The notes beneath the pieces are model-generated. The model worked only from the letters and a program-made list of their open reading frames with translations. It was not told the origin of the DNA and ran no database searches. Made by a program: the position numbers and the translations under genes. A stretch of 64,000 nucleotides of DNA from Sulfurovum sp. GTDB lineage: Bacteria; Campylobacterota; Campylobacteria; Campylobacterales; Sulfurovaceae. Each line of letters starts with the position of its first letter. Position 1 is the stretch's first letter. Below, one piece after another: positions 3,771 to 34,052 of the stretch. The stretch is from the NCBI GenBank assembly GCA_027063305.1, contig JAMORY010000013.1, positions 62,001 through 126,000 on the forward strand, given 5' to 3'.

Positions 3771-4898
3771 TTATCTCTTTTCCCATACAACACGATTGAT
3801 ATAATCCGTATATGAAAGAATGATTCTCAAGACCTTATCAGACACATTAGGCATACTATAATCAAAAACTTCTCTCAAGGTTTCTTCCGCTTGTGATTCC
3901 AAAATCTTCAGTCCCTGCAATATCCGTTCTTTATCCAATCCGACCATCATCACCGAAGCCTCTTCCATCGCTTCCGGACGCTCATGTGCCTGACGGATAT
4001 TTAAAGCAGGAAACTTGAGAATAGAAGATTCTTCGGAAATCGTGCCGCTATCACTCAGTACTGCTTTTGATTCCAGCTGAAGCTTTACATAATCATTGAA
4101 TCCTAGAGGCTTCAATAGCATAACAAGAGGATGAAAAGAAACGCCTTTCTCTTCTATTTTCTTTCTTGTACGCGGATGTGTTGATACAATGATCGGTAAT
4201 TGATATATATCTGCCATTGCATTAAGCGTTTCGACCAAGGCAGCAAAATTCTTTTCGCTACTAATATTTTCTTCCCTGTGTGCAGAAACAACAAAGTAAT
4301 TCTTTCGCTTTAATGAAAGAGCTTCAAGGATCTGTGAAGCTTCAATATCCTTTAATTTATTATGGATCACTTCATACATTGGACTGCCTGTCTTAATAAT
4401 TCTATCGGCAGGAAGTCCTTCTCGCAATAAATATTCTCTAGCTATATCACTATATGTCATATTGATATCTGCAATATGGTCAACAATCTTCCTGTTTGTC
4501 TCTTCAGGAACACGTTGATCAAAACATCTATTCCCTGCTTCCATATGAAAAACGGGTATCTGTCTTTTTTTTGCAGGAATTGCACAAAGACATGAATTCG
4601 TATCACCTAATACAAGAAAAGCATCAGGAGATATCTCTTCAAGTAACGGATCTACTTTGATCAAAATGTTACCTATTGTCTCAGCTGCCGTACCCAATGC
4701 CGCATTTAAGAAAAAGTCGGGTTTCCGAAGATTGAAATCTTTAAAGAACACTTCATTTAACTCATAGTCATAATTTTGCCCGGTATGAACAATAATGTGT
4801 TCAATCGCTTCTGACTCATCTAGTTTTTTCATAACGGCCGAAAGCCTTATGATCTCCGGTCGTGTTCCTACAACAGTCATTACTTTTAATTTTTTCAT
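3771..4898 (-). CDS. capG: UDP-2-epimerase of the UDP-L-FucNAc pathway (CapG/FnlC)
   Basis: A non-hydrolysing UDP-GlcNAc 2-epimerase-family protein of 375 aa (S. aureus CapG is about 374). Visible family motifs are VVGTRPEIIRLS at the N-terminus, HTGQNYDYELN, VLGDTNSCL, HMEAGNRCFDQRVPEE and the nucleotide-binding SDSGTISEESS near residue 284. As the third enzyme after CapE and CapF it would epimerise UDP-N-acetyl-L-pneumosamine at C-2 to give UDP-N-acetyl-L-fucosamine. It overlaps the upstream capF by 4 nt (ATGA), so the two are translationally coupled. A plain UDP-ManNAc-forming WecB is the alternative, but the gene order capE-capF-capG argues against it. Confidence 0.92.
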   Translation of the reverse strand: MKKLKVMTVVGTRPEIIRLSAVMKKLDESEAIEHIIVHTGQNYDYELNEVFFKDFNLRKPDFFLNAALGTAAETIGNILIKVDPLLEEISPDAFLVLGDTNSCLCAIPAKKRQIPVFHMEAGNRCFDQRVPEETNRKIVDHIADINMTYSDIAREYLLREGLPADRIIKTGSPMYEVIHNKLKDIEASQILEALSLKRKNYFVVSAHREENISSEKNFAALVETLNAMADIYQLPIIVSTHPRTRKKIEEKGVSFHPLVMLLKPLGFNDYVKLQLESKAVLSDSGTISEESSILKFPALNIRQAHERPEAMEEASVMMVGLDKERILQGLKILESQAEETLREVFDYSMPNVSDKVLRIILSYTDYINRVVWEKR

Positions 4899-6010
4899 TC
4901 TTCCACCTCTAGAAAATATGTATCGGGGTTTTCCCTATCAAATACTTCATTTGCCCAAAGTAACAAGATCATCTCGTTATCTCCTGTATTTGTAATATTG
5001 TGGGTATATCCCGGTATCATTTCCACTACTTCCATATTTTTATCACTCACTTTATACTCTATTATCTCATCACCATGTATCTGACGGTATTTAATACTGG
5101 CTTCTCCCTGAATTACAAGGAACTTCTCATTTTTAGTATTATGATAATGATTTCCTCTTGTAACACCCGGGGCGGTCGTAGAGATAGAAAACTGCCCACT
5201 ATCGATCGTTTTAAGAAACTCATAAAAAGTCCCTCTCTCATCACTATACCCTTTTAAAGAATATGAGAATTTATCTTTAGGTAAAAAACTAAGATAGGTT
5301 GCATAAAGTGCTCTTTCAAAACCTCTCCCCACACGCGGGATAAGCAAACTCTCTCGGCTTATCTTGAAATCTATAAGTAACTGGTGGATCTCTCCAAGAG
5401 TTTTTTTATATACAGGTGATATATCACCATAAATCACTCCCTCTTTCCCATTTTCGTCAATATGACGTACGATACTGTTTATCACGTCATCTATATAAAC
5501 CAGATTTAAAGTTACATTTTCATCATTGATCTGAATGGGTAGCTCTCTTATTATATTGTAACACCATGTAGCGATCACTGAATTATAGTTGGGTCTGCTC
5601 CACTTTCCAAAAACATTCGGTAAACGATAAATATAGACAGTAGCACCTGTTTGATGAGAATAAAGCCGAAGAAGTTCTTCCGCTTTATATTTGCTCTTAC
5701 CATAGTCATTATCCATCTCTGCCTGAATAGAAGAGCTTATAAGAATAGAGGGAGGATTCTTTACCTGCATTGCATAATCAATAATCTTTTGTGTTAAATT
5801 ACGATTTCCCTCATAAAACACTTGAGGATCTTTTGGACGATTTACTCCGGCAAGATGAAAAATAAAATCCGCTTGTATGACCTTTTCCTCAAGCACATCA
5901 AAAGATTCATCTTTGGTAAACGTATGAATTTCTAGACCTTCCATTCTAGAAAGTTTTTCAAGAAGGTTCCTCCCTATAAAACCATTACTACCCGTCACCA
6001 ATATACGCAT
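4895..6010 (-). CDS. capF: UDP-hexulose reductase with cupin domain (CapF/FnlB)
   Basis: This 371-aa bifunctional-looking protein has an N-terminal short-chain dehydrogenase/reductase domain (TGSNGFIGRNLLEKL, and YGKSKYKAEELL with the Tyr-x3-Lys pair). From about residue 255 a C-terminal cupin follows (GVTRGNHYHNTKNEKFLVIQG, then PGYTHNITNTG) with conserved metal-binding histidines. Length and architecture match CapF. Known role: the cupin part acts on the CapE product and the SDR part reduces it with NADPH, giving UDP-N-acetyl-L-pneumosamine. It shares the TAATG junction with capE and ATGA with capG. Confidence 0.95.
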   Translation of the reverse strand: MRILVTGSNGFIGRNLLEKLSRMEGLEIHTFTKDESFDVLEEKVIQADFIFHLAGVNRPKDPQVFYEGNRNLTQKIIDYAMQVKNPPSILISSSIQAEMDNDYGKSKYKAEELLRLYSHQTGATVYIYRLPNVFGKWSRPNYNSVIATWCYNIIRELPIQINDENVTLNLVYIDDVINSIVRHIDENGKEGVIYGDISPVYKKTLGEIHQLLIDFKISRESLLIPRVGRGFERALYATYLSFLPKDKFSYSLKGYSDERGTFYEFLKTIDSGQFSISTTAPGVTRGNHYHNTKNEKFLVIQGEASIKYRQIHGDEIIEYKVSDKNMEVVEMIPGYTHNITNTGDNEMILLLWANEVFDRENPDTYFLEVEE

Positions 6011-7035
6011 TATACAACTCCAAAGCTCTTTAGATCATCTTGAATTTCCAAAAGTCCCAAAAGCATTTGCCTAAGCTCCTCTTCATCCAAACGATGGGTA
6101 TTGTGAGAATGGTACTCATGTGCCTGTGTCACAACCTCTTCTCCATCTTCAAAGAATTTGTTATAGTTCAAATCACGCGTATCGGCAGGAATACGATAGT
6201 AACCTCCCATATCTTCCGCTTTGACCATCTCCTCTTTGGTCAACAATGTCTCATAGAGTTTTTCTCCATGTCTTGTTCCGATGATCTTGATCTCATGTTC
6301 AGGTCTGTTCAACATATTTTTAAGGGTATACGCCAACAGTTCAATGGTCGCAGCAGGTGCTTTTTGTACGAAAATATCGCCGTTTCGTCCATGCTCAAAG
6401 GCAAAAAGCACCAACTCGACCGCCTGATCGAGACTCATCATAAAGCGGGTCATCGCCGGATCGGTGATCGTGATCTCTTTCCCCTCTCTGATCTGATTGA
6501 TAAAGAGTGGTATGACCGAACCTCTTGATGCCATCACATTACCGTAGCGGGTAACGGCGATCATGGTTTGCGAATCATCAAGATTACGCGATTTTGCAAC
6601 TGCCACACGCTCCATCATCGCTTTGCTTATCCCCATTGCATTAATGGGATAGACCGCTTTATCGGTACTAAGCACGATCACTTTTTTCACCCCCGCATCG
6701 ATCGCCTCTTCCAGCACATTCTCCGTACCGAGCACATTGGTATTGACCGCCTGCATCGGGTAAAACTCACAAGAAGGTACCTGTTTGAGCGCAGCCGCAT
6801 GAAATACATAGTCAACCCCACGCATTGCATCTTTAACGGAGCTTCTATCGCGTACATCTCCCAGATAGAATTTCAACTTGTCGTTATTGTACTGTTTTCG
6901 CATATCATCTTGTTTCTTCTCATCCCGTGAAAAGATGCGGATCTCTCCTATCTCTGTATTGAGAAACCTACGCAAAACCGCATTTCCGAACGACCCCGTA
7001 CCTCCGGTGATAAGCAGTACTTTGTTCTTAAACAT
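6010..7035 (-). CDS. capE: UDP-GlcNAc 4,6-dehydratase / 5-epimerase (CapE/FnlA)
   Basis: The 341-aa SDR enzyme closely resembles S. aureus CapE (about the same length). It has the NAD(P)-binding TGGTGSFGNAVLRRF at the start, FHAAALKQVPSCEF, STDKAVYPINAMGISKAMMER in place of a classical Tyr-x3-Lys, RYGNVMASRGSVIP and GTRHGEKLYETLLT. It converts UDP-GlcNAc to a UDP-4-keto-6-deoxy-L-arabino sugar, the first committed step to UDP-L-FucNAc. FlaA1/PglF-type inverting dehydratases are relatives, but the coupled capF and capG genes favour CapE. An AT-rich gap with an AAGGATAGGAAG leader precedes the ATG, so this may be the head of its own transcript. Confidence 0.95.
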   Translation of the reverse strand: MFKNKVLLITGGTGSFGNAVLRRFLNTEIGEIRIFSRDEKKQDDMRKQYNNDKLKFYLGDVRDRSSVKDAMRGVDYVFHAAALKQVPSCEFYPMQAVNTNVLGTENVLEEAIDAGVKKVIVLSTDKAVYPINAMGISKAMMERVAVAKSRNLDDSQTMIAVTRYGNVMASRGSVIPLFINQIREGKEITITDPAMTRFMMSLDQAVELVLFAFEHGRNGDIFVQKAPAATIELLAYTLKNMLNRPEHEIKIIGTRHGEKLYETLLTKEEMVKAEDMGGYYRIPADTRDLNYNKFFEDGEEVVTQAHEYHSHNTHRLDEEELRQMLLGLLEIQDDLKSFGVV

Positions 7036-7080: not shown

Positions 7081-8268
7081 TTACTTTCTCATGAGCAATG
7101 CCGCTAACTCTTCACCATACCGATAACAATCAAATGTACTTTCAGCCTGTTCCCTTGATGCATATCTCATTTTCCGCTTTTTCTCCGTAGAGAGATGAAG
7201 TGCTTTTAGAATACTCTTTTTTAATGCATCAATAGAGTGGTCAAAACAAATAAAACCTTCCTTTCCTTCCCCTATATATGCTCCAAGATCACTGGTGATA
7301 TTGCAAATAACCGGCGTTCCCATACTCAAACTCTCTACCACTTTGGTAGGGAAACCGGCTTGCGCATATCTCTCCGGGCGACGAAGCAGTAAACTAAAGT
7401 CTGCGTTACGTGTAATTTCCATCGCTTCTTGTTGTGATGTGATCCCCCTGCAATCCAGTACGGGGGGGATACTCTCTAATGTGATCTTCCGCTTCTCTAT
7501 AGCTTTAAAGCACATCAGCTGTTCTTTTGTTACACCGGCAAAAGAGAATTGTAGATCATTCCCCTCTTCATGCAGTTGCAAAACCGCTTCGAGATATTCG
7601 TTAAAAAGATCTTTATTACCCGGCGTTCCTGTATATGAGAGAACAAGCCGTTCATTTTCAGGTTCAAGATTCGGTTCCACTTTTTTCATATCCAGTGTCG
7701 GCGGAACCCGTACCGTCTCGCACCCTTTCGATGTATAGTGACGCTCCAAAAAACTGCTGATGGCGATCACCGCATCCGTTTTACGGCTGTAATAACGCAG
7801 TGCCAATTCGATATTCCACTGATAAGGAGAGAGAAGCCCATGTAAGAAGCTCTTGGGATCATACCACTCCACCGCATCAAAAACAAACTTGACCCCATGC
7901 TTTTTGCACCATGGGATAAGGCGCATCATATAGGGACTGTATCCGCTGTAAAGGATTATGGCATCGGGTTTTTCAGGAAGCTGATCAAGCCATGCGACAC
8001 TCTTTCTTCCCATACCAAAATAGAGAAGATGTTTCAAGTAGCGCGGATACTTCTCTGCTGTTCTCTCCCCTAACGATACAACCTTCAGACCTCTGTATTC
8101 ACTCTCTGCCGGTTCATCGTTTCGACTATTTTCTTCTGCTACTTGCCCCGAAGCGATCACCACTTCCGCTCCAGCTTCTTTCAATGCCAGTGCATTCCCC
8201 AATATCCGCCTTGCCGCCGCTCCTCCGTTAGGAAAAGAGAAGGGACCGATGTAGATTATTTTTTTCAT
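7081..8268 (-). CDS. Glycosyltransferase family 4
   Basis: A GT-B fold glycosyltransferase of 395 aa. The N-terminus has the typical IGPFSFPNGGAAARRILGNALAL (donor-side glycine loop), and the C-terminal domain carries FPTKVVESLSMGTPVI with the E-x7-E-like element. Donor and acceptor are unknown. The stop of the upstream SGNH gene overlaps its start by 4 nt, so it is co-transcribed with the acetylation genes. A 45-nt gap separates it from capE. Its base composition is close to that of the conserved flank, unlike the AT-rich gene just upstream, so the composition break lies at about 8.27 kb. Confidence 0.85.
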   Translation of the reverse strand: MKKIIYIGPFSFPNGGAAARRILGNALALKEAGAEVVIASGQVAEENSRNDEPAESEYRGLKVVSLGERTAEKYPRYLKHLLYFGMGRKSVAWLDQLPEKPDAIILYSGYSPYMMRLIPWCKKHGVKFVFDAVEWYDPKSFLHGLLSPYQWNIELALRYYSRKTDAVIAISSFLERHYTSKGCETVRVPPTLDMKKVEPNLEPENERLVLSYTGTPGNKDLFNEYLEAVLQLHEEGNDLQFSFAGVTKEQLMCFKAIEKRKITLESIPPVLDCRGITSQQEAMEITRNADFSLLLRRPERYAQAGFPTKVVESLSMGTPVICNITSDLGAYIGEGKEGFICFDHSIDALKKSILKALHLSTEKKRKMRYASREQAESTFDCYRYGEELAALLMRK

Positions 8269-9269
8269 TTAATAATTCCTGATTTAAATATATATTTTGC
8301 TAAATTTATATGAGCTTCATCATTCCAGTGTTTATCACAACTAAATGATGGAAGTGTAAGAATATGATGTGAAGTCAAATCATATAAATTCAAAAATGGT
8401 ATGGAATATCGATGAAGTATCTTAACAAGTTGTTCTATATTATCTTTTTTTTCAGAATTAATAATTACTATATATTCAATACCCTTGGATTTTAACAATT
8501 TTTTTGTTTGATAAATGGCACCTTCAATTTGAAGCCAGTTTTGAGCTAAGTTCACCATTTTTTTACCTATAGTCTTTTTTTCTTTAATTTTATTGTTTGA
8601 AATGAATTTTTTTACCTCTTTTTTTAAAAAGTAGATAGATTTTTTTAATGGAACATAAATTTGATAGCTACCAATAATATCTATTATTTTATCTTTTAGC
8701 CCTTGTTTTCTTGGGGGAATAATAAAATAATCTTCTACTGATATAAATTTTATAGCTACTTTTGGTCTAGAAAAAGAATCAATGTTTTTAGGATCAACAT
8801 CATATAAATCACTATCTATATTTATAATTTGCAATATGGTTTTTACGTTATTTAAATTTGCTTTTTTTACAAGTATCATATATTGTTGAGTAGGGGATGT
8901 TCCACTTAAACCATAATTTAAAAAGTTATATTTCCCTTTAAATTCTTTCCAAAGTGAATTATGTAATATATTTTTATTCTTAACCATAATTGCTTCAGTA
9001 AAAGAATCACCTAAAATTAAAACATCTTTTCTTTCATCGTTATATATATAGTTAATATCAACTAATCCATTTTCGTCAAAAAAATATTTTGTGTTATAAC
9101 ATTCTTTAATGGCATAAGATGAAAAGTTCTTTTTATGCCACATTCCGATATCTTTATCATAGAGCACAGGGGAAACTCCATAAGAAAATGGTGAATACCT
9201 TAAAAACAATTCAAATGATATAATAGATAAAAACATTGCCATTACTATAATTAGTATTTTTTTAACCAT
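8265..9269 (-). CDS. SGNH-hydrolase-like membrane-anchored protein, probable O-acetylation partner
   Basis: A 334-aa protein with one N-terminal hydrophobic anchor (residues 4-20) and an extracytoplasmic SGNH/AlgX-N-like domain. The nucleophile motif is VLILGDSFTEA with Ser about 89, an oxyanion-type NYGLSGTSP segment lies near 118, and a C-terminal CDKHWNDEAH carries the Asp/His pair of the triad. In the alginate and PatA/PatB systems an MBOAT protein passes acetyl groups across the membrane to such a partner, which acetylates the glycan. The MBOAT gene directly upstream (10-nt gap) supports that role here. Very AT-rich codon use, unlike both flanks, suggests recent acquisition or rapid exchange. 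Confidence 0.72.
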   Translation of the reverse strand: MVKKILIIVMAMFLSIISFELFLRYSPFSYGVSPVLYDKDIGMWHKKNFSSYAIKECYNTKYFFDENGLVDINYIYNDERKDVLILGDSFTEAIMVKNKNILHNSLWKEFKGKYNFLNYGLSGTSPTQQYMILVKKANLNNVKTILQIINIDSDLYDVDPKNIDSFSRPKVAIKFISVEDYFIIPPRKQGLKDKIIDIIGSYQIYVPLKKSIYFLKKEVKKFISNNKIKEKKTIGKKMVNLAQNWLQIEGAIYQTKKLLKSKGIEYIVIINSEKKDNIEQLVKILHRYSIPFLNLYDLTSHHILTLPSFSCDKHWNDEAHINLAKYIFKSGIIK

Positions 9270-9279
9270 TTTCTAATTC

Positions 9280-10683
9280 CTAAAAATTAAAATACAAAAA
9301 CTCAGAAACTTTATTATCCTGCAACATAATATTTGTTAGTTGCAAAAGTGCAAAAAAGAATAAAAAACTACCTAAGAACAAAGCATATCTCATATATCTT
9401 TTTTGCATAATTACTTCATAGCTATTTTTAAATCCTAAAACTAGAATAAATCCTAATATTATATATGTATATTGCATATTCCATACCTGTTTAAAAGCTC
9501 CAATATCAAACATACCATGTAAAACCTTTAGTGCATCATCCCACTCTTTAGCTCTAAAGAATACCCATGCAATATTTACAAAATTAAATGTGATAAACCA
9601 TGCTAATAGTGTATGCATCCTAATACCCAGTTTTTGCCACATACGATGTATAACGATCGCTCCTCCGTGAAGTGCACCCCAAAATATAAATGTCCAACCT
9701 GCACCATGCCAAATACCGCCAATAAGAAATGTTGCAAAAAGATTACGGTAGGTATGTATTTCACCCTTTCGATTTCCTCCAAGTGGTATATAGATATAAT
9801 CCCTTAAAAAACGGGAAAGGGTTATATGCCATCGGTGCCAAAAATCCTGAATAGAGACGGCTTTATAGGGACTGTTAAAGTTGATCGGTAATTTTATATT
9901 AAAAAGCAATGCCGCTCCTATCGCCATATCGGTATATCCGCTAAAGTCAAAATAGAGTTGAAAAGTATAGGAAAGAGAGGTCACCCATGCTTCAACAAAG
10001 TTAAGCTCTTTTGCAACATCAAACCCTTTGGTTGCCCAAACGGCAAAGGTATCTGCAATGACCACTTTTTTAAACAGACCTATAGAAAAAATAAAGAGTC
10101 CCATCGATATATTATGGTAGTTCTTTAGTTTATTTCTTGTTTTGGCAAATTGCGGTATCATCTCTTTATGGTGCACGATTGGCCCTGCAATCAGTTGAGG
10201 AAAAAACGTAACAAACAGTGCATATCGTAAAAAGTCATACTCTTTTGTCTCCCCTCTATAGCTGTCTACAAGATAAGCAATCTGTTGAAACGTAAAAAAA
10301 GAGATTGCCAACGGCAGTGCCAAATGAAGCAAAGGAATTTTCGTTCCTGCAACAAGATTAAAATTCTCTATCAAAAAATCCGCATATTTGAAATATCCAA
10401 GCAAAGCTATATTTGCAACAATACCTATAGTAAGCAGTGTTCTTTTTCCTACTTTTTGATGCTCTTGAGACTTACCAAGACTCTCTCCGATAATATAGTT
10501 GAACAGCATTGATCCTAAAATAAGAGGAAGGTATGCAATATTCCACCAACTATAAAAAAAGAGTGAAGCAAAAACCAAAAAACCTTTTGCCGCTTCCGTT
10601 AAATGCTTTTTATTTAGATAGAAATAAATGAAAAATGTAATCGGTAAAAAAGCAAATATAAATATATAACTATTAAAAAGCAT
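9280..10683 (-). CDS. MBOAT-family O-acyltransferase (AlgI/PatA-like)
   Basis: This 467-aa polytopic protein begins with LFNSYIFIFAFLPITFFIY and has about ten hydrophobic segments. Family hallmarks are YFDFSGYTDMAIG near 244, FWHRWHITLSRFLRDYIYIPLGG from 281, and GGIWHGAGW near 322-330 followed by the likely catalytic His in GALHGG (about 339). MBOAT proteins of this type take acetyl groups in the cytoplasm and deliver them outwards for glycan O-acetylation. With the SGNH-like gene 10 nt downstream it forms an AlgI/AlgX-style pair. The acceptor here is presumably the polymer encoded by this locus. Confidence 0.93.
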   Translation of the reverse strand: MLFNSYIFIFAFLPITFFIYFYLNKKHLTEAAKGFLVFASLFFYSWWNIAYLPLILGSMLFNYIIGESLGKSQEHQKVGKRTLLTIGIVANIALLGYFKYADFLIENFNLVAGTKIPLLHLALPLAISFFTFQQIAYLVDSYRGETKEYDFLRYALFVTFFPQLIAGPIVHHKEMIPQFAKTRNKLKNYHNISMGLFIFSIGLFKKVVIADTFAVWATKGFDVAKELNFVEAWVTSLSYTFQLYFDFSGYTDMAIGAALLFNIKLPINFNSPYKAVSIQDFWHRWHITLSRFLRDYIYIPLGGNRKGEIHTYRNLFATFLIGGIWHGAGWTFIFWGALHGGAIVIHRMWQKLGIRMHTLLAWFITFNFVNIAWVFFRAKEWDDALKVLHGMFDIGAFKQVWNMQYTYIILGFILVLGFKNSYEVIMQKRYMRYALFLGSFLFFFALLQLTNIMLQDNKVSEFLYFNF

Positions 10684-10692
10684 ATCTAGTTC

Positions 10693-11775
10693 CTATTTCC
10701 TATTCAAAAGTAACTGATGTATTTTTTTCATCAAAACAGAAGAAATTAAAACGGCAGATACAAATATCATACAGAAAAAAATATTCATATACCAATTTGT
10801 AAAATATTCAGCAAAACCTATCCATGGATTTCGAAGAAATCCATGGATAAAAAAAATATACATAGACAATGAACCGCACAGCATTATAATAGACTTAAAA
10901 AGTCCATCACTATATGTGTAAATTCCTTGTATCACAAGTAGAAGTATTAATACTATACTAATATAACTAAAATACCAAAAAAATAGATAATAGTTTGAAA
11001 GTATAAAAATAACGATCAAAGCCCCAAAAAATAATAAGGGTATCTTTACCTCTCCTCTTTTTGCAAATATAATTCCTAAAGTAAGTTCAGGAAGGTGCAT
11101 AAAAACAGTTCCTCCTAACCTTATATCCAAATAAGGTTGCAGTAGATATGATAGGAGCAAAGAAAAAAATGAAAGCATCAATAGTATATAATATCCATAT
11201 TGATTCTCAATTTTTAATAAAAGAGGAAAAAGTATATAAAACTGAAATATTAATGAAAGAAACCACCATGGTCCATTAATTGTGTAGAGTTCTCCCGGAA
11301 CAAAGTTAGATATTAACAATAGTTTCATCCAGAGTGATTCCCAATGGTCACATATAACCTGTAAAGGGCCACCATATTTCAAACCTACATAAAAAGCCCA
11401 AAAAAGTACTGAAAGTATAAATACCGGATAGATCTTTTTAAATCTAGTTTGCAAGAAATAACCATAAGTTACCGTACTATTTAGATATTTTTTTGTTAAT
11501 CCGTAAGCACTCAAAAAAAGAAAGACCTGTACTCCATAGTGCCCTAAAAACGAGAAAAATGCTTGAAAAGAATATAGAGGTTCATTTATTACAAGAGCAG
11601 TGAACCTTTTTATATTATTAAAATCAAAATATTGTTCATTCTCTCCAATATAAGGGGAGAGTTTACGAAAAAAATTGTGTAATACAATTAGAAGTATGGT
11701 AATCCCTTTAAAAAAAGTAGTATCCTCGATCGTTAAATCCCGATAAAGCATTGTATGTTTGAACCTACTTTTCAT
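10693..11775 (-). CDS. OafA-like acyltransferase family 3 protein
   Basis: An integral membrane acyltransferase of about 360 aa with roughly ten hydrophobic segments. The first is preceded by LTIEDTTFFKGITILLIVLHNF, which contains the conserved His expected in TM1 of acyltransferase-3 proteins. The reading frame extends to 11835, but I prefer the ATG at 11775. It gives the usual distance to the His motif and only an 11-nt overlap with the upstream gene instead of 71 nt. Family members O-acetylate LPS or exopolysaccharide. Two independent acylation routes (this one and the MBOAT pair) therefore sit side by side. Confidence 0.85.
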   Translation of the reverse strand: MKSRFKHTMLYRDLTIEDTTFFKGITILLIVLHNFFRKLSPYIGENEQYFDFNNIKRFTALVINEPLYSFQAFFSFLGHYGVQVFLFLSAYGLTKKYLNSTVTYGYFLQTRFKKIYPVFILSVLFWAFYVGLKYGGPLQVICDHWESLWMKLLLISNFVPGELYTINGPWWFLSLIFQFYILFPLLLKIENQYGYYILLMLSFFSLLLSYLLQPYLDIRLGGTVFMHLPELTLGIIFAKRGEVKIPLLFFGALIVIFILSNYYLFFWYFSYISIVLILLLVIQGIYTYSDGLFKSIIMLCGSLSMYIFFIHGFLRNPWIGFAEYFTNWYMNIFFCMIFVSAVLISSVLMKKIHQLLLNRK

Positions 11776-13753
11776 AAATACGGTCAACCAGATATTTACA
11801 CAATGCTCTCTCATCCAATGAAGAAAGTGTTTCACACTCTTTCATCGGAATTTTTATTTGTTTTTGCATATTTCTATAGTAAAAATGATCTTTATATTTT
11901 CCTACAGCAAAACTACGATTACTATCTTCAAAGATATTTCTTCCCATAAAACTTTTAGGTACCTCTACTTTATACATAGACAAAAGTGTAGGCGCAAGGT
12001 CAATTTGAGAAAAAATACGATCATTTATAGAAGAGTATATTGTAAAATCTTTATTTTTTGTAACAAATATCAATGGTATTTTTGACAGTCTGTTAAAATT
12101 GCCTTTTTGTGCAAACTTTCTAAAATCAGCTCCTAAATGTGGATTGTGATCCGCCGTAATAATTATTAATGTTTTTTCATCAAAAAGCTGCTCTTTTTTA
12201 AGTTCTTGCATAAATTTCTTTAGTTGACTATCGATCCAATACAATGACTTTAACAAAATATAACTCTTTTGAAGCCCTTTAGGTAACGCTTCATCCAAAT
12301 AGTTACACTTAGGTCCGGGAAGATGAAAATCGATCGTTTTAAGCACTAAAAAAAGTTTCTTTTTTCTATTTTGATCCATTACTTCAAGTGCTTTGCGGTA
12401 GACATATGCATTATCAAATCCCCAACCTGAATATTTTTCACCATAAGACTGAATCATCTCCTCTTGAAAGATCCCATGTTCATAGCCAAAAGCTTTAGGA
12501 TAGTAAGTTAAATGGTCTCCATAGAACTTTGTACTGCCTCGTACAAAATAGGTTTGATATCCCAAATCTTTCATTAGATTAAAAATACTCTGATGCTTCA
12601 CATCTTTATCTAACCTAGATTTCAATAAAGCCGTCAATCCATAATCTGTCGGCATATTGGAGGTATAAAAACGATCTAAATGAAAATAATTTTGTAATAA
12701 ATAATCAAAATATACCGTACTCTCTTTAGGAATACTCTTATTATAATAGTGAATAAAATCTGTACTTAATGACTCAAATACCAGTAACACTATACGATCA
12801 TACTCTTTTGTAAAGACAGGTTCTTTACTTTGTATCCATTCTTTTTGAAATAGTTGACCTAAACTTACCTTCTCTTTTTGAGTTAACTGATAATACTTTA
12901 TTTTATTACCAATTTTACCTTTTTCACTCTTCCATGAACCATATGACAGAGTGTAAGCAGACACCAAATTCGGTATTGACAGTGTAGCAATCTTTTCAAC
13001 AAGCTTGTTTTTACTTTCTCTTGCGGTTGCATACCGAGAACAGACTTTACTAACCACATAGTGATCCCCTACAAATAATACTCCATAAAAAAGTGCTAGA
13101 ATACTCCATGAAATAAAAAGACCCTTAAAATACTTTTTATCATGTTTTATATCAATTATTTTAAAGTAATAAAAGAGTATTACGTTCAATAAAACAAAAG
13201 GAGTCAATACCCTTACAATATCTTTGAATGCAATATCAAGAAAAAAACCTTGTATTGATGTCCAATTCAAATTTTCAAAAAGAATATATTCAAAGGGCTC
13301 CCCAGTATTATAAAAATATACAAAAAATGCCAAGTTAACAAATAAAATCATATTTGCCATAAAAATATATAATACTTTAATATATTTACTCTCTAACCAT
13401 GGCCGAACTAATAATAAAGGAAGAACTTCAATAAATGCTGTAAGTATAACACGAATCAAATAGATAAGATCTGGTGTGATCTGTTGCTGTTTTACAAGAT
13501 ATATTCGTAAACATACAATTAATATAAAAAGTATTAACTCGACACTATATTTATAAAAAGTATGCTTTAAGATACTTCGTTTCAACACTAAGATCAAAAT
13601 TACTAAAAAGTAAAAAAGTAAAAACATATGAATAGAGGCAGTAAGATCACATGGTCTAATCTTGATCGCATGCACTACATAATCTACAATTTTATACAAG
13701 AACCATATAACCGGTAAAGACAACCCTAGTTTTTCGATGATAGTCAACTGCAT
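11765..13753 (-). CDS. LtaS/MdoB-like phosphoglycerol-type transferase (sulfatase superfamily)
   Basis: A 662-aa protein with about six hydrophobic segments in the first 230 residues and then a large sulfatase-type extracytoplasmic domain. The metal/nucleophile motif is VFESLSTDF with ESLS at 327-330 (Ser in place of the LtaS Thr). TSNMPTDYGLTALL follows near 364, and the metal-binding TADHNPHLG lies at about 533-541. LtaS and MdoB move glycerol phosphate from phosphatidylglycerol onto a glycan, and a related decorating or polymerising role is inferred. In a Gram-negative capsule/O-antigen locus it could add phosphoglycerol side groups. It differs clearly from the EptA-like gene at the left edge. 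Confidence 0.83.
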   Translation of the reverse strand: MQLTIIEKLGLSLPVIWFLYKIVDYVVHAIKIRPCDLTASIHMFLLFYFLVILILVLKRSILKHTFYKYSVELILFILIVCLRIYLVKQQQITPDLIYLIRVILTAFIEVLPLLLVRPWLESKYIKVLYIFMANMILFVNLAFFVYFYNTGEPFEYILFENLNWTSIQGFFLDIAFKDIVRVLTPFVLLNVILFYYFKIIDIKHDKKYFKGLFISWSILALFYGVLFVGDHYVVSKVCSRYATARESKNKLVEKIATLSIPNLVSAYTLSYGSWKSEKGKIGNKIKYYQLTQKEKVSLGQLFQKEWIQSKEPVFTKEYDRIVLLVFESLSTDFIHYYNKSIPKESTVYFDYLLQNYFHLDRFYTSNMPTDYGLTALLKSRLDKDVKHQSIFNLMKDLGYQTYFVRGSTKFYGDHLTYYPKAFGYEHGIFQEEMIQSYGEKYSGWGFDNAYVYRKALEVMDQNRKKKLFLVLKTIDFHLPGPKCNYLDEALPKGLQKSYILLKSLYWIDSQLKKFMQELKKEQLFDEKTLIIITADHNPHLGADFRKFAQKGNFNRLSKIPLIFVTKNKDFTIYSSINDRIFSQIDLAPTLLSMYKVEVPKSFMGRNIFEDSNRSFAVGKYKDHFYYRNMQKQIKIPMKECETLSSLDERALCKYLVDRIYEK

Positions 13754-13761
13754 GATCTAAT

Positions 13762-14796
13762 CTAATTCTCCCTCAATATCTTTTCTTCTTGCATAAGTTT
13801 CAAATATTTTGCTACGTTAACCTCAAGTCGGAACTTTTCTAATTTTTCCCGTTCAATTTGAGGATATTGATCCAATGCTTGTTTTATTTTATCTGCAATA
13901 TCTTTATAGTCTCCAACTTTTGCCAAATATCCACTAAGCTCTTTAGGAATGATCTCTCTTATGCCAGAAGGACAGTCTGTCGCTACAACAGGTGTTTTTA
14001 AAATCAGAGATTCAATAACTACCCCGGGTAACCCCTCAATATCTGAAGTCTGTACGAATAGTCTTGCCCTCTTAATATACTTATATGGATTTTCAACCCA
14101 TCCCAACCATTGAACTTTATGGGAAATCCCCAATGTATCTGCTAAAGCATGTAGTTTACGCTCCTCGCTACCCATCCCAAGGATCAATAAGGATTCCTTA
14201 GGTTGTAAACTAGCATAAGCTCTTAATAGAAGGTCATAACGCTTAACCGGCTCCAAACTTCCAACGGCAATAATATAAGAAGAGTCTAGACCTATGGGTG
14301 TTGTAGCCAATAGTTCTATTCTATTAAAGTCAAATGGATTATATATCGTTTTTACATATGATGGTTTTATCTTGAGTAATGATAGATCTTTCCGTACCCA
14401 GTCAGATACAGTAACTACCTTTGCTCCGCGATAGATCAATTGTAATTTCAAATATTCAATAACCCGAGCTTTCCATGACATTTTCTTTAATTTTGCCGAT
14501 ATAGTTGTATGTATGACAAAAAAGATACGAGGATCTTTTTTCATATTCCTCAAGACTTTTGCCGTATGTGTCATATGCCCGATCAAAAGATCGAAATCTT
14601 CTTGAAGTATAGTAGCTTCTATGTTTGCAACTTCTATATATTCTACATATTTTTTATCAATGGGGAACTCAACAATATTATGTGTTATATATATCTTGGA
14701 ATCATATCCTGCACGTAGAAAACCTTCATGTAGGTCAATACAGACCCTTTCTGCCCCTCTTCCTTTTAAACTAGGAATGAACTGTATAATCTTCAT
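13762..14796 (-). CDS. Glycosyltransferase family 4
   Basis: A 344-aa GT-B enzyme. It opens with IQFIPSLKGRGAERVCIDL (the GGAE-type loop with GRGAE), has AVGSLEPVKRYDLLLRAYA at the start of the donor domain, and carries the E-x7-E motif in TSDIEGLPGVVIESLILKTPVVA. It is cytoplasmic and sugar specificity is unknown. It lies 9 nt downstream of the formyltransferase-like gene stop region (gap 14797) and 8 nt before the LtaS-like gene, within one continuous minus-strand operon. Confidence 0.87.
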   Translation of the reverse strand: MKIIQFIPSLKGRGAERVCIDLHEGFLRAGYDSKIYITHNIVEFPIDKKYVEYIEVANIEATILQEDFDLLIGHMTHTAKVLRNMKKDPRIFFVIHTTISAKLKKMSWKARVIEYLKLQLIYRGAKVVTVSDWVRKDLSLLKIKPSYVKTIYNPFDFNRIELLATTPIGLDSSYIIAVGSLEPVKRYDLLLRAYASLQPKESLLILGMGSEERKLHALADTLGISHKVQWLGWVENPYKYIKRARLFVQTSDIEGLPGVVIESLILKTPVVATDCPSGIREIIPKELSGYLAKVGDYKDIADKIKQALDQYPQIEREKLEKFRLEVNVAKYLKLMQEEKILREN

Positions 14797-14797
14797 A

Positions 14798-15568
14798 CTA
14801 TACTCTCCATCCTAATCTACGATAGAGTACTTTTTTCTTTTCATCGGTAATCATTGAAAAACGAAACACTTCCTGTGTTACATTTTCTTGAACTTTACCT
14901 TTATTTCCTTCCTTAGCTAATTTTATTGCATCCGGAATCAATTCAATTGCTGCTAGAATATTTTTATAACGTAAATCATAGAAAGTATCTTTATCTTCAA
15001 CCTGAATACTTTTTTGAAGTAATATATTACCAGTATCCACACTATTCTCTACATAATGTATTGTAACACCACAATACGCATAATCTTGAAAATAAAGTTG
15101 CCAAAACTCAGGCATCGTTCCTTTATAGTATGGGAGTAGTGAAGAATGAATATTCAACATTCCGACTTTAGGAAGAGAGATCAGCGACTGCCCCACAATT
15201 GATGTTCCAAACAATATGATAATATCATAGGATGATGCTTCTATTCTATTCAAAAACTCTTTTGAGTGAATGTTAACAGGACACTTTGGCATTTTTACAG
15301 ACTGAATTACGTTCTTAAAATCAGGGAAGTACCTCTTTCTTGCACGACATTCCATAAGTATCTCTATATCCGATAAAGAATACTGTTTCGTAAAAAAACG
15401 TTTATATCTTTTTAATTCCTTTTTTATAGAGGTAAAAAGACTAATATGATTCTTTTTCTTTTTTTTCTTTTCTATATAAATATCTATAGTTCCATTATTC
15501 ATCTGGAGAAGTTTTCCTACAAAATATTTTGCTGGCAAAGAATCATTTGTCAAGATTGCAATCTTCAA
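14798..15568 (-). CDS. Formyltransferase-fold protein (possible sugar N-formyltransferase)
   Basis: The 256-aa protein carries the formyltransferase core MLNIHSSLLPYYKG at 137-150 and GVTIHYVENSVDTGNIL near 167-183. The catalytic triad Asn139, His141 and Asp178 is intact. Known relatives use N10-formyl-tetrahydrofolate to formylate Met-tRNA, GAR, or amino sugars such as 4-amino-4,6-dideoxy sugars (VioF, WbtJ types) or L-Ara4N (ArnA). The position inside a glycan locus, in a 4-nt overlap with a deacetylase gene, favours an amino-sugar substrate. No aminotransferase gene (DegT family) is in the window, so the amine may instead come from the deacetylase. A lysine-rich run (34-39) comes from an A-rich tract at about 15446-15475. 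Confidence 0.78.
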   Translation of the reverse strand: MKIAILTNDSLPAKYFVGKLLQMNNGTIDIYIEKKKKKKNHISLFTSIKKELKRYKRFFTKQYSLSDIEILMECRARKRYFPDFKNVIQSVKMPKCPVNIHSKEFLNRIEASSYDIIILFGTSIVGQSLISLPKVGMLNIHSSLLPYYKGTMPEFWQLYFQDYAYCGVTIHYVENSVDTGNILLQKSIQVEDKDTFYDLRYKNILAAIELIPDAIKLAKEGNKGKVQENVTQEVFRFSMITDEKKKVLYRRLGWRV

Positions 15569-16458
15569 AATTTCAACTCCTCAATTACTCGTCTATCTGC
15601 AGGAATACGCTTATACCCTACATCCTTTTCTACATTTATACCACCATTTGCAAAAACAATTTGTAATCCTAACTCCAAAGCTACCTTGATTGTAGTATGG
15701 TTCCAATCTCCCGTACGACCAAATGGGATTGCAAAAATATGTTGGTAATATGGATGGTCTTTAAAACAAACAATATCTTTCTCAAGGTTATCTCTCTGCC
15801 AAGATTCATCCATCATAGAAAATCTTTCATGATAGTATCCATGTGGTGCAATATTAAAAAGAGGATCATTAATCACTTTTAGTTCTTCAGATGAGAGATA
15901 AAGATTAAAATCTGTTTTTATCTCTTCAAATAGTTTTTGAAACCTAAAAACATACTCTTGGTAAAATTCTCTATCTAAGGTATGCCTTAACTTTACAATA
16001 TCTTCTTCTATTTGTTGTGTTATTAATGTATTATAAGAAGAATGATGTTTTATAAAATTATAAATAGCATACCAATAAGACATCTTATTATCAAGATGAG
16101 CACCATTGATAAAAAATGTAGCTGGTATTTGAAGCTTTTTTAAAATTGGGATCATCTCTAAAACAGACTTATCCCCATCATCTACCGTAATTGCAGCATA
16201 ATTTCCATCTAGCTTTCCATGATTTAAAAGCTCTATACCCTCTGATAAAGAGATAATCGTATATTCTTTTTGGATATATACTAGTTGTTCTCTAAAAAAA
16301 GAACTCTCTGTAAAAGTACCCTGAGTATGTATACCTGGAATAAACTTTTTTCCGATCTGATGATAATTAAAAACTGTTAGTGCATGAGGCTTTTTTCTTA
16401 TATGACGTAAAAGTTCAAGGTTAATACTATAATTTCTATAAGAAAACTCAAATTTCAT
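15565..16458 (-). CDS. Polysaccharide deacetylase (CE4 family)
   Basis: This 297-aa NodB-homology protein starts with a domain containing FNYHQIG near residue 30. Motif 1 appears as AITVDDGDKSV (VDDGD at 92-96), followed by PATFFINGAHL. A later APHGYYHERFS supplies the paired histidines of motif 2. Both metal-ligand sets appear present, so activity is plausible. No signal peptide or membrane segment is visible, so it probably works in the cytoplasm on a lipid-linked or nucleotide-bound N-acetyl sugar. It overlaps the formyltransferase-like gene downstream and the GT2 gene upstream by 4 nt each, which suggests concerted deacetylation and reformylation (inference). Confidence 0.83.
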   Translation of the reverse strand: MKFEFSYRNYSINLELLRHIRKKPHALTVFNYHQIGKKFIPGIHTQGTFTESSFFREQLVYIQKEYTIISLSEGIELLNHGKLDGNYAAITVDDGDKSVLEMIPILKKLQIPATFFINGAHLDNKMSYWYAIYNFIKHHSSYNTLITQQIEEDIVKLRHTLDREFYQEYVFRFQKLFEEIKTDFNLYLSSEELKVINDPLFNIAPHGYYHERFSMMDESWQRDNLEKDIVCFKDHPYYQHIFAIPFGRTGDWNHTTIKVALELGLQIVFANGGINVEKDVGYKRIPADRRVIEELKF

Positions 16459-17438
16459 TCATGTCCTTTTTTATTTAACTGTTTCTTTACAAAATGTATA
16501 TATCCATAAAATGAATACCACCAAAAACTTATACGATCACTCTTATTATGAAGAAGTATTTTAAAAAGCTCTCTTCTTGATATCATAAGAATAAAAACTA
16601 CTTTTTTATGATTAGAAATAGGTGCATTCACCACTTTACTAAGTAACTTATACAGTGCTTTTTGAAGTGCATCTTTAACAACATTGTCATTGGCACGGGA
16701 GCTTACCATGATCCACTGATATGACATCTCCAAATAGTGAAGGAAGGACTCTATCATCATCTGTGTCTTTTCCAATGGCGCAATATCTCTACGCTGATCA
16801 TCGATACGATGGTAAAAATCAAGACTTTCATCTACTAAATACTTTTTCTCCTCTACCAATAATGCACGAGTATGCAACTCTACATCCTGCAATCGTTTAA
16901 AGCTTTCGTCAAAACCTTTTAGCTTCATTAAAAATGCTCTTTTCCAAATAGGAGATGTTGTATGCCAAGGAATTTGATAGGAGAGAAATAGTAAAAGATG
17001 ATCCTCATTTGGCTGAATATATTTTACAAATGTTGTATCTCCTATTTTTTTATTGAAATGCCCTACCGGATAGATCGCAAAATCGATCTCCGGATTATCT
17101 GTTAGCTTATTAACCCGCTGTTTTAATGCATGAGGGAGAAGAAGATCATCCGCATCAAGAAAAATAATATACTTTCCTTTTGCTTCTTTCAATCCGATAT
17201 TACGGCAGACAGATCCTCCTCGTACTTCACTCTTCCGTTCAATCAAATGAAAACGACTCTCTTCCAATAACAGATCCTTTACTATATTAAGTGAAGTATC
17301 TGTAGAACCATCATCTACTATAATTACTTCCCAGTAAGGAAAGTCTTGAGCTTTTACACTTTCCAGTGTCTCCTGAATATAACGTTCCTTATTATATAAA
17401 GGAATAATAATCGAAACTATAGGTGTATCATTTTTCAT
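16455..17438 (-). CDS. Glycosyltransferase family 2
   Basis: A 327-aa GT-A glycosyltransferase. The N-terminal PIVSIIIPLYNKERYIQETL, VIIVDDGSTDTS and FLDADDLLLP (the DxD metal-binding motif near residue 96) are diagnostic. The C-terminal third is variable and probably recognises the acceptor. It overlaps the flippase gene upstream and the deacetylase gene downstream by 4 nt each, indicating strict co-expression. The donor sugar is unknown. Confidence 0.92.
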   Translation of the reverse strand: MKNDTPIVSIIIPLYNKERYIQETLESVKAQDFPYWEVIIVDDGSTDTSLNIVKDLLLEESRFHLIERKSEVRGGSVCRNIGLKEAKGKYIIFLDADDLLLPHALKQRVNKLTDNPEIDFAIYPVGHFNKKIGDTTFVKYIQPNEDHLLLFLSYQIPWHTTSPIWKRAFLMKLKGFDESFKRLQDVELHTRALLVEEKKYLVDESLDFYHRIDDQRRDIAPLEKTQMMIESFLHYLEMSYQWIMVSSRANDNVVKDALQKALYKLLSKVVNAPISNHKKVVFILMISRRELFKILLHNKSDRISFWWYSFYGYIHFVKKQLNKKGHE

Positions 17439-18883
17439 TTTCTCTTCCTCTTTAACAGGTCAACTATTACTTGCAAAAACTCTCTATTGTAACGGTGGTT
17501 CAAAACATAAAAAAATAGACCCATGATCCCAGTAATAATAATCCCCTTCAAATAGATATTGTCAATACCTATCATATAACATAGGAGTTCTCCAAATAAT
17601 GCACCTGAAATACTAATAAGAAATGGTCGTACGATCTGAAGAAGGTATGACCTTAGTGTTGCACCACTTAATGGACGAACAACAATATACCAGTTTGGGA
17701 AAATAAACCCTGTTGTCAAAAGCAATAAACTCCATGCAACCCCAATTAAACCCCAATGAGAACCTATATAGATCACTGCGACCATAATAAAAAATTTACC
17801 TAAATTTAAATAGAAACTAAGATCTGCTTTCCCTTTTGAAAGTAATAGTGTTCCTTGAGGGTTACCGGTTGAACGGATCGCACCATAAAATGCAAGTATT
17901 CGTAATATATCTATACTCTCTTCCCATTTATGTCCAAATAAGATCAATATGATCGGTTCTGCCAGAACAGCCATTAGAATATAGATAAAAAAGTTCACTG
18001 TCGAAAGATAGTTGATCGTTTTCAAATAGATACTTCTTAATTTTTGCGTATCATCTTGTAACTTTGACATAACAGGGAAAGTGACTCTGGTTATGATCGG
18101 ATTTATCACCTTTGCAGGACGTAAGGATAAATTCTTAGCAATACTATAGATACCCAATGCTTCAACACCCAAAAGTTTTCCGATCAATATTACATCAAAT
18201 TGTGAATTAAAATAGGTAATACTACGATCTGCCATTTGAAAAAGCCCAAATGTGATCATAAAGCGAATCGCACGATAGTTAAATATAAACGAAGGACGAT
18301 GCTCCTTCATACCCATAGAAAGAAAAACCACTGTATTAAAAAAACTACTTCCCAGTGCAGCATAAACAAGAGAATAGATACCAAAATCATTTATTGCAAG
18401 TATTGTAGCAAGTAGCAAACTGGTAAAAACCGTCAAAATACTTATTTTTGAAAGTATATTGAATTTTAATTCTTTTTGAAGAAGTAATTTATACTGGCTT
18501 GCAAAAGCATTCATGACAAAGGTCAAAGCAAGCAAACGGATCAATACAACTAATGACTCTTGATGGTAAAAATCTGCTATAAAGGGGGCTATCATATAGA
18601 CTACAAGAAATAAGAATACTCCTGCAAATACATTTAACCAATATAAACTTGAAAGCTGTTCATGACTTAAGTGCTGTTTATGAATAATTGCTGCACTAAT
18701 CCCCATATCCATAAAGAGTGCACTAAAACCGATAATCACATAGACAATTGCCATCAATCCAAAATCAGAAGAAGATAGATAGTGCGTTAATATTGCAAGT
18801 TGTAAAATTTGAAAAAGCGTATTGATCGCAGATGAAAGTGTTGTCCACTTGACACCTGAAAGTACTTTCTCTCTCAATGACAT
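17435..18883 (-). CDS. Wzx/WzxC-type oligosaccharide flippase
   Basis: The 482-aa protein has 12 or more hydrophobic segments and the N-terminal signature of the MOP superfamily (SLREKVLSGVKWTTLSSAINTLFQILQLAIL). DFGLMAIVYVIIGFSALFMDMG follows, as in WzxC/TuaB-type translocases. It would flip the undecaprenyl-linked repeat unit to the periplasm. Together with the Wzy-like gene at 23460 it indicates a Wzx/Wzy-dependent pathway. The start overlaps the upstream glycosyltransferase stop by 10 nt. Confidence 0.92.
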   Translation of the reverse strand: MSLREKVLSGVKWTTLSSAINTLFQILQLAILTHYLSSSDFGLMAIVYVIIGFSALFMDMGISAAIIHKQHLSHEQLSSLYWLNVFAGVFLFLVVYMIAPFIADFYHQESLVVLIRLLALTFVMNAFASQYKLLLQKELKFNILSKISILTVFTSLLLATILAINDFGIYSLVYAALGSSFFNTVVFLSMGMKEHRPSFIFNYRAIRFMITFGLFQMADRSITYFNSQFDVILIGKLLGVEALGIYSIAKNLSLRPAKVINPIITRVTFPVMSKLQDDTQKLRSIYLKTINYLSTVNFFIYILMAVLAEPIILILFGHKWEESIDILRILAFYGAIRSTGNPQGTLLLSKGKADLSFYLNLGKFFIMVAVIYIGSHWGLIGVAWSLLLLTTGFIFPNWYIVVRPLSGATLRSYLLQIVRPFLISISGALFGELLCYMIGIDNIYLKGIIITGIMGLFFYVLNHRYNREFLQVIVDLLKRKRK

Positions 18884-26978: not shown

Positions 26979-28241
26979 TTACAATCTCCCGTCAACACTA
27001 TTTTGATCGAGGATCGCCTTAATATCAAAGATCACTTGACTATCATCACTTGAAATAGCCAGTGATCTAAACTCATTATGTGCCACTGCTAGTACAATAG
27101 CACCATACTTATCGAGTTCAAGTTCATCTTCAGATAGAAGAGACAACCCATACTCACGCTCTACCTCTTTCGGATCCGCCCAAGGATCATACACATCGAC
27201 TTTCGTACCGAACTCTTCAAGTTCTCGGATCACATCGATCACACGTGAATTTCTGATATCGGGACAATTCTCTTTAAATGTAATACCCAATACGAGTACC
27301 TTGGCACCCTCGATCTTCTGCCCTTTTTTGATCATCAGTTTGATCACTTGGTTGGCAACGTAAATACCCATATTATCATTAAGCCGGCGACCGGCAAGAA
27401 TGATCTCCGGATTATAACCGACCTCTTGTGCCTTATGGGTCAGATAGTAAGGGTCGACACCAATGCAATGCCCTCCGACAAGTCCCGGACGGAAAGGCAG
27501 GAAGTTCCACTTGGTACCGGCAGCTTCCAGTACCGCTTCCGTATCGATACCGAGTTTATTGAAAATGATCGCCAGTTCATTGACAAATGCAATATTGATA
27601 TCACGCTGAGAATTTTCGATCACTTTTGCCGCTTCCGCTACTTTTATAGAAGGTGCAAGGTGTGTTCCAGCCATGATCACGGAAGCATAGAGATCATCTA
27701 CGATCTTTCCTGTCTCAGGAGTTGAACCGGAAGTGACCTTAAGGATCTTTGTAACAGTATGCTCTTTATCCCCCGGGTTGATACGCTCGGGCGAGTAACC
27801 GCAAAAGAAATCTTCATTGAACTTCAAACCGCTTACCTTTTCAAGGATCGGCACACAATCCTCCTCGGTCGCTCCCGGATATACTGTTGATTCATAGATA
27901 ACGATATCACCCTTTTTCAACACTTTCCCAATACTCTCACTTGCTTTAAGCAGCGGCATAAGGTCGGGGCGTTTATGCTCATCGATCGGTGTTGGGACTG
28001 TTACGATATAGGTATTGCAATCAGCAATATCATCCAACTGATTCGTAAACTCCATACCATTAGCAATCGCTTCTTTCACCTGTTCATCACTCAGCTCCAA
28101 TGTTCTGTCATGTCCGTTTCGCAGCTCATCGATACGCCACTGTGCAATATCGAAACCTACAACCTTATATTTCTCACTAAATGCATGTGCCAAAGGTAGT
28201 CCGACATATCCTAAACCGATCACTGCTATTTTATGTTGCAT
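26979..28241 (-). CDS. tviB: UDP-HexNAc 6-dehydrogenase, TviB/WbpO-like
   Basis: A 420-aa nucleotide-sugar dehydrogenase distinct from Ugd: [68 protein letters not shown], and [17 protein letters not shown] with the catalytic Cys. This motif set and length fit Vi-antigen TviB and WbpO. Those enzymes oxidise UDP-GlcNAc or UDP-GalNAc to the uronic acid (GlcNAcA/GalNAcA). It is the first gene after the promoter-like region at 28.29 kb and so probably heads the long polysaccharide transcript. Confidence 0.9.
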
Positions 28242-33118: not shown

Positions 33119-33127
33119 GGTATTTTT
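33099..33127 (-). terminator. Intrinsic terminator of the radical-SAM gene
   Basis: A perfect 13-bp inverted repeat (33099-33111 and 33115-33127) with a 3-nt loop forms AAAAATACCTTGA-cat-TCAAGGTATTTTT on the minus strand, ending in a T-run. It starts at the TAA stop codon of the radical-SAM gene (33126-33128). The palindrome could act in both directions. Confidence 0.8.
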
Positions 33128-34037: not shown

Positions 34038-34052
34038 TTTTGGCTCCAATTC

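Follow-up and report, generated by a model that had tools for sequence, protein, structure and literature searches.

Two overlapping genes in a genome of Sulfurovum sp. probably form an N-acyl exchange module, in which a CE4 deacetylase would remove the N-acetyl group from a sugar intermediate in the cytoplasm and a formyltransferase would then N-formylate it. N-formyl sugars serve as surface epitopes; in the usual account their synthesis begins with an aminotransferase. In the route proposed here, the CE4 protein would deacetylate the nitrogen of an N-acetylated sugar, either nucleotide-activated or lipid-linked, and the second enzyme would move a formyl group from N10-formyl-tetrahydrofolate onto the resulting amine, ahead of flipping of the repeat unit. 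Enzymes for a UDP-HexNAc-uronate and for L-FucNAc are encoded within the same cluster, so the likely product would be an N-formyl hexosamine, in the simplest case one with formamido at C-2, for example GalNFo(A), GlcNFo(A) or FucNFo. The proposal is built on features legible in the sequences themselves: the families of the two proteins, their intact catalytic residues, the overlap of their genes, and the recurrence of such formyltransferases beside, or fused to, deacetylases. From these we infer the order of the reactions, their substrate, the carbon position and the action of both enzymes on one nitrogen.

The window is a stretch of 64,000 nucleotides (positions 62001-126000 of contig C13) from a nearly complete host genome of 2.03 Mb. 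Both open reading frames, which a first-pass annotation had described as overlapping by 4 nt, were found where that annotation had placed them:

15565-16458, minus strand: CE4 (NodB-fold) deacetylase of 297 aa (PF01522), a predicted cytoplasmic de-N-acetylase
14798-15568, minus strand: predicted sugar N-formyltransferase of 256 aa (PF00551), with a TTG start and an N139-H141-D178 triad
15565-15568, minus strand: stop/start overlap of 4 nt, TTGA, which with GAGGAG on its 5' side suggests translational coupling

The TGA stop of the CE4 gene falls within the TTG start of the formyltransferase gene. A Shine-Dalgarno-like GAGGAG lies within the CE4 gene and ends 8 nt 5' of this TTG, which makes the start plausible. 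The formyltransferase matched PF00551 at 2.5e-19 (70.2 bits; gathering cut-off 26.1) and the deacetylase matched PF01522 at 5e-12 (46.3 bits; gathering cut-off 23.1), both passing. Among NCBIfam equivalogs, the formyltransferase missed the cut-offs for Fmt (69 bits, cut-off 201), PurN (57, cut-off 150), ArnA (66, cut-off 777) and PRK07579 (33, cut-off 238). A simple hydropathy scan found neither a signal peptide nor a strongly hydrophobic N-terminus in the CE4 protein, in agreement with its earlier description as cytoplasmic-looking. The whole genome has one PF01522 match, which is the window CE4, and five PF00551 matches; adjacency by chance would therefore have a likelihood of about half a percent, an estimate for which about 2000 genes were taken.

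The Asn-His-Asp triad of the formyltransferase, previously noted as intact, is indeed so: none of N139, H141 and D178 varies in alignments of 28 and of 32 sequences. An AF2 model of the protein has a pLDDT of 90.9, and its top PDB folds are WbkC, a GDP-perosamine N-formyltransferase, in first place and ArnA as a close second (Foldseek E 2e-13). ArnA is also among the top profile matches. The protein is predicted to be a sugar N-formyltransferase with N10-formyl-THF-dependent activity. In the CE4 protein the Asp-Asp of motif 1 (D93, D94) and the metal-binding His residues of motif 2 (H206, H210) are intact, and all four are invariant over 8 sequences, which include fused FMT-CE4 proteins. Motif 3 reads AIPFG and has no counterpart to the Arg of RxP(Y/W); IcaB/PgaB-type enzymes are likewise not known to have an Arg in this motif. 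The nearest folds of the CE4 AlphaFold model are IcaB, PplD and PgaB, with which the profile search was concordant, but the model is of low confidence (pLDDT 61.7) and too poor for active-site claims.

Relatives were found by similarity to the formyltransferase, with no selection on neighbouring genes. An alignment of five proteins, the window formyltransferase and four plasmid relatives, served as the query for a scan of 84,980 genomes, and the neighbours of the matches were then read. The first-pass annotation had suggested looking for the pair in other genomes; it recurs in three architectures, including some with deacetylases that are not homologous to the window CE4. In the first, a PIG-L deacetylase gene precedes the formyltransferase gene. 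The nearest plasmid relatives (tblastn), from Antarctobacter and three Leisingera, each lie directly 3' of such a gene with a 4-nt overlap, and with these four loci included PIG-L (PF02585) is directly 5' of the formyltransferase in 11 Rhodobacteraceae-type loci, mostly with the same overlap. The second is a fusion, found in 7 loci of Acidobacteriaceae, Bryobacter and relatives, in which a single polypeptide of about 560 aa carries the formyltransferase domain at its N-terminus and CE4 at its C-terminus, both Pfam domains scoring above cut-off. Among the CE4s found, this fused domain is the closest to the window CE4, and D93, D94, H206 and H210 are common to both. In the third, a distinct CE4 subfamily, which we call DFE-type (motifs LDFE-WG, HTFSH and HPHNFG), lies directly 5' of the formyltransferase in 14 scanned loci, 10 of them confirmed by Pfam and the remainder assigned by HMM. 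Hosts of the third architecture include Chitinophagaceae, Flavobacteriia, Campylobacterota, Omnitrophota, Oscillospiraceae and others.

CE4 of this subfamily is also encoded directly 5' of the formyltransferase in two further Campylobacterota genomes, and in a distant relative (L050) the formyltransferase gene overlaps a gene for a VimE-like deacetylase. Where the two genes are separate the overlap is 1-26 nt in almost every case, and two bigger overlaps (53 and 94 nt) hinge on the choice of start codon. The same profiles found no deacetylase of these kinds near any of 46 control loci, most of which encode PurN/Fmt-like proteins. No relatives turned up on viral contigs, and a tblastn search of plasmids with the CE4 protein gave no matches. 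The window pair has less than 30% overall identity to all of its relatives, and the arrangement with a window-type CE4 (CE4a) upstream was seen only in the window. At another locus (L045:1084-2676), an upstream gene for a protein of about 420-530 aa shares 1 nt with the formyltransferase start. In this protein, CE4-like D/H motifs can be seen by eye (SSDPDN, TWGDY, VDHSMFPG, YTHLG); searches of Pfam, NCBIfam and PDB gave no matches, and the locus was therefore counted as unpaired.

Three samples of genomes show how regular the association is. The subfamily occurs in 4 of 397 Campylobacterota genomes, set apart by a score of 227 bits vs 120 for the next match. All four carriers have a CE4 in the locus, overlapping in three; one genome (G003) had been a candidate for an unpaired carrier and was rejected as such, its CE4 lying 16.6 kb away on the same contig. 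Among 397 Flavobacteriaceae genomes the formyltransferase is found in 25, DFE-type CE4 in 53 and both in 16; that is, DFE-type CE4 is present in 16 of the 25 carriers vs 37 of 372 non-carriers (Fisher odds ratio 16.1, p 9.5e-10, uncorrected for phylogenetic relatedness). In all 16 genomes that have both, the genes are on one contig within 16 kb. Most of the other nine carriers have a FemAB/GNAT gene next to the formyltransferase, or the latter stands alone in non-glycan surroundings. In the Rhodobacteraceae-type sample 4 of 306 genomes are carriers, two with PIG-L pairs and one with a DFE-type CE4 nearby. With the three samples pooled, a deacetylase is in the locus for 23 of 33 carriers, and in the others the formyltransferase has either a FemAB/GNAT gene or no related gene beside it. 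Pairing is common without being universal: the top matches had given the impression that it was nearly so, which these family-wide samples rejected, and the carriers that have no DFE-type CE4 indicate that the formyltransferase need not have a deacetylase next to it. At six loci (L065:4379-6435, L069:4372-6480, L187, L190, L193 and L204) the formyltransferase gene is directly 3' of a FemAB/GNAT gene, with no deacetylase adjacent; at L065 it also follows a PylC-like ATP-grasp gene.

The DFE-type CE4 genes of Flavobacteriaceae have other partners as well. Where no formyltransferase is present, a FemAB/GNAT-type acyltransferase gene adjoins the CE4 gene in 11 of 18 loci according to one profile, and at least three more of these 18 have another FemAB-like gene in that place. 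This is the pattern expected of a de-N-acetylase with interchangeable re-acylating enzymes. By analogy, these loci probably encode a deacetylate-and-reacylate module like VimE/VimA. At L224, L225, L227, L230-L233, L236 and L237 the CE4-FemAB/GNAT genes often adjoin a gene for a polyprenyl-phosphate sugar transferase.

The statement in the first-pass annotation that the window has no aminotransferase for a classical 4-amino sugar holds for the DegT family (PF01041), and for the contig as a whole. A contig-wide profile search found no DegT gene on C13, and a direct scan of the window together with the preceding 40 kb and the following 19 kb also gave none, so that an amino-sugar pathway just outside the window, which that annotation had named as evidence against its proposal, was not encountered. 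The genome has two strong DegT matches, both on contig C2. One is PseC, with PseB/PseF/PseI neighbours, and the other is of LegC/PglE type and adjoins PglB. These enzymes are predicted to produce 4-amino sugars in this cell. Many sugar N-formyltransferases use 4-amino sugars, and the window enzyme might take the product of PseC or of the LegC/PglE-type transaminase while the CE4 protein trims another residue of the glycan. We consider this unlikely. Both transaminases are encoded in the genome, some relatives of the formyltransferase have no deacetylase, and a DegT gene is near two subfamily loci (L064 and L071), but these two are the only ones among about 40, the transaminases are on contig C2 amid pseudaminate and PglB genes, and this route would leave the FMT-CE4 fusions, the repeated recruitment of unrelated deacetylase partners and the co-occurrence statistics unexplained.

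In the synthesis of lipid A aminoarabinose, ArnA and ArnD likewise combine a formyltransferase of PF00551 with a CE4 protein in one pathway. ArnD is a CE4 deformylase. By analogy the window pair might carry out transient formylation, in which an amino sugar would be formylated and the window CE4 would later deformylate it in lipid-linked form. Such a scheme is improbable here. The substrate of ArnA is a 4-amino sugar from ArnB, and ArnD later takes off the formyl group, whereas the window locus has no ArnB and contig C13 has no aminotransferase of this type. ArnA is among the top fold and profile matches of the window formyltransferase, yet the NCBIfam ArnA score of 66 is far from its cut-off of 777. 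The order of genes in one divergent Campylobacterota clade, formyltransferase first and CE4 second, would suit formylation followed by deformylation; in the main subfamily, however, the deacetylase usually comes first. Elsewhere the place of CE4 is occupied by PIG-L, a known family of N-acetylglucosaminyl deacetylation, and DFE-type CE4 pairs also with FemAB acyltransferases. PIG-L in the deacetylase position, the fusions and the alternation with FemAB together favour exchange of N-acetyl for N-formyl over these other explanations.

In the formyltransferase tree one branch suffices to set off the PIG-L group, and one the fused group; the DFE-type CE4 group requires three changes. Since the architectures fall in separate clades, deacetylase partners were gained more than once. 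The window formyltransferase has a long branch and is nearest to the PIG-L group, with weak support. Glycan loci often exchange genes and the window pair is isolated on this tree, but it is very improbable that shuffled cassettes have merely placed together two enzymes with no common substrate, given the single-polypeptide fusion, the overlapping frames in many lineages, the repeated linkage with CE4a, CE4b and PIG-L, and the finding of such a deacetylase in 0 of 46 control loci; chance adjacency was rejected on these recurrence data.

In the divergent Campylobacterota group, where both frames are intact, the formyltransferase gene and the CE4 gene that follows it overlap by 1 to 4 nt. Pairs in this reversed order are at L171:8913-10636, L172:8361-10108 and L173:8929-10782, with a 4-nt overlap in L171 and L172. 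At L172 a TylF-type methyltransferase gene precedes the pair and a gene for a CMP-sugar-type cytidylyltransferase follows it. The reversed-order pair may be part of nonulosonate glycosylation. One genome of the same genus (G264) has two formyltransferase-CE4 pairs, unlike each other and some 15 kb apart (L168:10167-11916 and L169:7031-8997).

The logic of exchanging one N-acyl group for another has precedents. In NodB/NodA of Nod factor synthesis and in LpxC/LpxD of lipid A synthesis, a GlcNAc unit is de-N-acetylated and then N-acylated with another group; NodB is itself a CE4 enzyme. These systems differ from the window pair in their fatty acyl donors, unrelated acyltransferases and defined oligosaccharide or UDP-GlcN substrates. 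The nearest solved structures to the window formyltransferase, WbkC of Brucella, WlaRD and the PRK07579 family, have the Asn-His-Asp chemistry in common with it, but they act on the 4-amino (or 3-amino) groups of sugars made by an aminotransferase and have about 20% identity to it. We know of no deacetylase partner for formyltransferases of this kind. In the Wbp/Vim pathway of Porphyromonas gingivalis and Tannerella forsythia, VimE, of the CE4 family, is proposed to remove the C-2 N-acetyl group of a UDP-sugar, and VimA re-acylates the amine with serine or glycine (PMC7468200). Deacetylation by CE4 followed by re-acylation is the logic proposed for the window pair; the differences are that a seryl or glycyl group is added by a FemAB/GNAT-type enzyme rather than a formyl group derived from folate, and that VimE belongs to a different CE4-like subfamily. 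Genetic linkage of deacetylase and N-acyltransferase across lineages, of the kind seen for NodB/NodA and VimE/VimA, is found here as fusion, overlap and co-occurrence.

The first-pass annotation had put forward deacetylation followed by formylation as a route that is not well described. The route itself gains support, beyond what had been expected, from the recurrence of the pair in three architectures, with its substrate and order proposed from the sequences. As to novelty, only the formyl version appears to be undescribed. No description of a deacetylase-formyltransferase exchange was found in the open-access literature, and the literature on the Bordetella wbm locus gave no help on such a route, but removal of N-acetyl and subsequent re-acylation has precedents with fatty acyl and aminoacyl groups. 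The O-antigen of P. aeruginosa O6 contains D-GalN(formyl)A (PMC10609480, Table 3), a natural formylated hexosamine uronate of the kind expected from the proposed route. In the open-access literature we found no paper that names the genes for this N-formylation. Deacetylation followed by formylation would explain 2-formamido sugars, for example this GalNFoA.

A broader proposition, that N-acyl exchange is modular, has about an even chance of being correct. In it, deacetylases of several unrelated kinds (PIG-L, and two or three CE4 subfamilies) would feed interchangeable re-acylators (formyltransferase or FemAB/GNAT), and the Acidobacteria-type fusion would be bifunctional. If so, modular exchange would give bacteria a general way to make N-formyl hexosamines that dispenses with an aminotransferase, and annotators could predict N-formyl glycans from the gene pair or the fusion. 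The most testable novelty is the fusion as a putative single enzyme that would convert N-acetyl to N-formyl.

The pair is inside a long glycan cluster, in the order GT2, CE4, formyltransferase, GT4, 3' of a flippase gene. The relevant genes of the cluster are:

17435-18883, minus strand: MOP-family flippase, Wzx-like (NF007773, 497 bits, above cut-off)
16455-17438, minus strand: GT2 glycosyltransferase (PF00535, E 1.8e-33), overlapping the CE4 start by 4 nt and sharing a transcription unit with CE4
13762-14796, minus strand: GT4 glycosyltransferase (PF00534, E 1.2e-32), directly 3' of the formyltransferase with a 1-nt gap
26979-28241, minus strand: UDP-GlcNAc 6-dehydrogenase, TviB type (NF011729, 602.6 bits, cut-off 592)
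6010-7035, minus strand: FnlA-like UDP-GlcNAc 4,6-dehydratase/5-epimerase, UDP-L-FucNAc route (TIGR04130, 577.9 bits, under the cut-off of 730)
4895-6010, minus strand: FnlB/WbjC-like reductase, UDP-L-FucNAc route (NF047837, 485.5 bits, slightly under the cut-off of 500)
3771-4898, minus strand: UDP-HexNAc 2-epimerase, WecB/FnlC-like, UDP-L-FucNAc route (TIGR00236, 244 bits, above cut-off)

The Wzx-like flippase points to assembly in the cytoplasm with flipping afterwards, and the TviB-type dehydrogenase would supply a HexNAc uronic acid, which is a candidate acceptor. Elsewhere in the window, at 8265-10683, a gene for an MBOAT O-acyltransferase (PF03062) adjoins one for a 334-aa protein that has no Pfam match and resembles an AlgX/SGNH-type partner; the two are probably a module for O-acetylation of the glycan. 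At 10693-13753 an acyltransferase-3 gene with a GTG start overlaps by about 70 nt a gene for a sulfatase-family membrane protein (LtaS/phosphotransferase-like). At 33126-34049, just past the sugar-nucleotide genes, a gene that starts with TTG encodes a radical SAM protein (PF04055).
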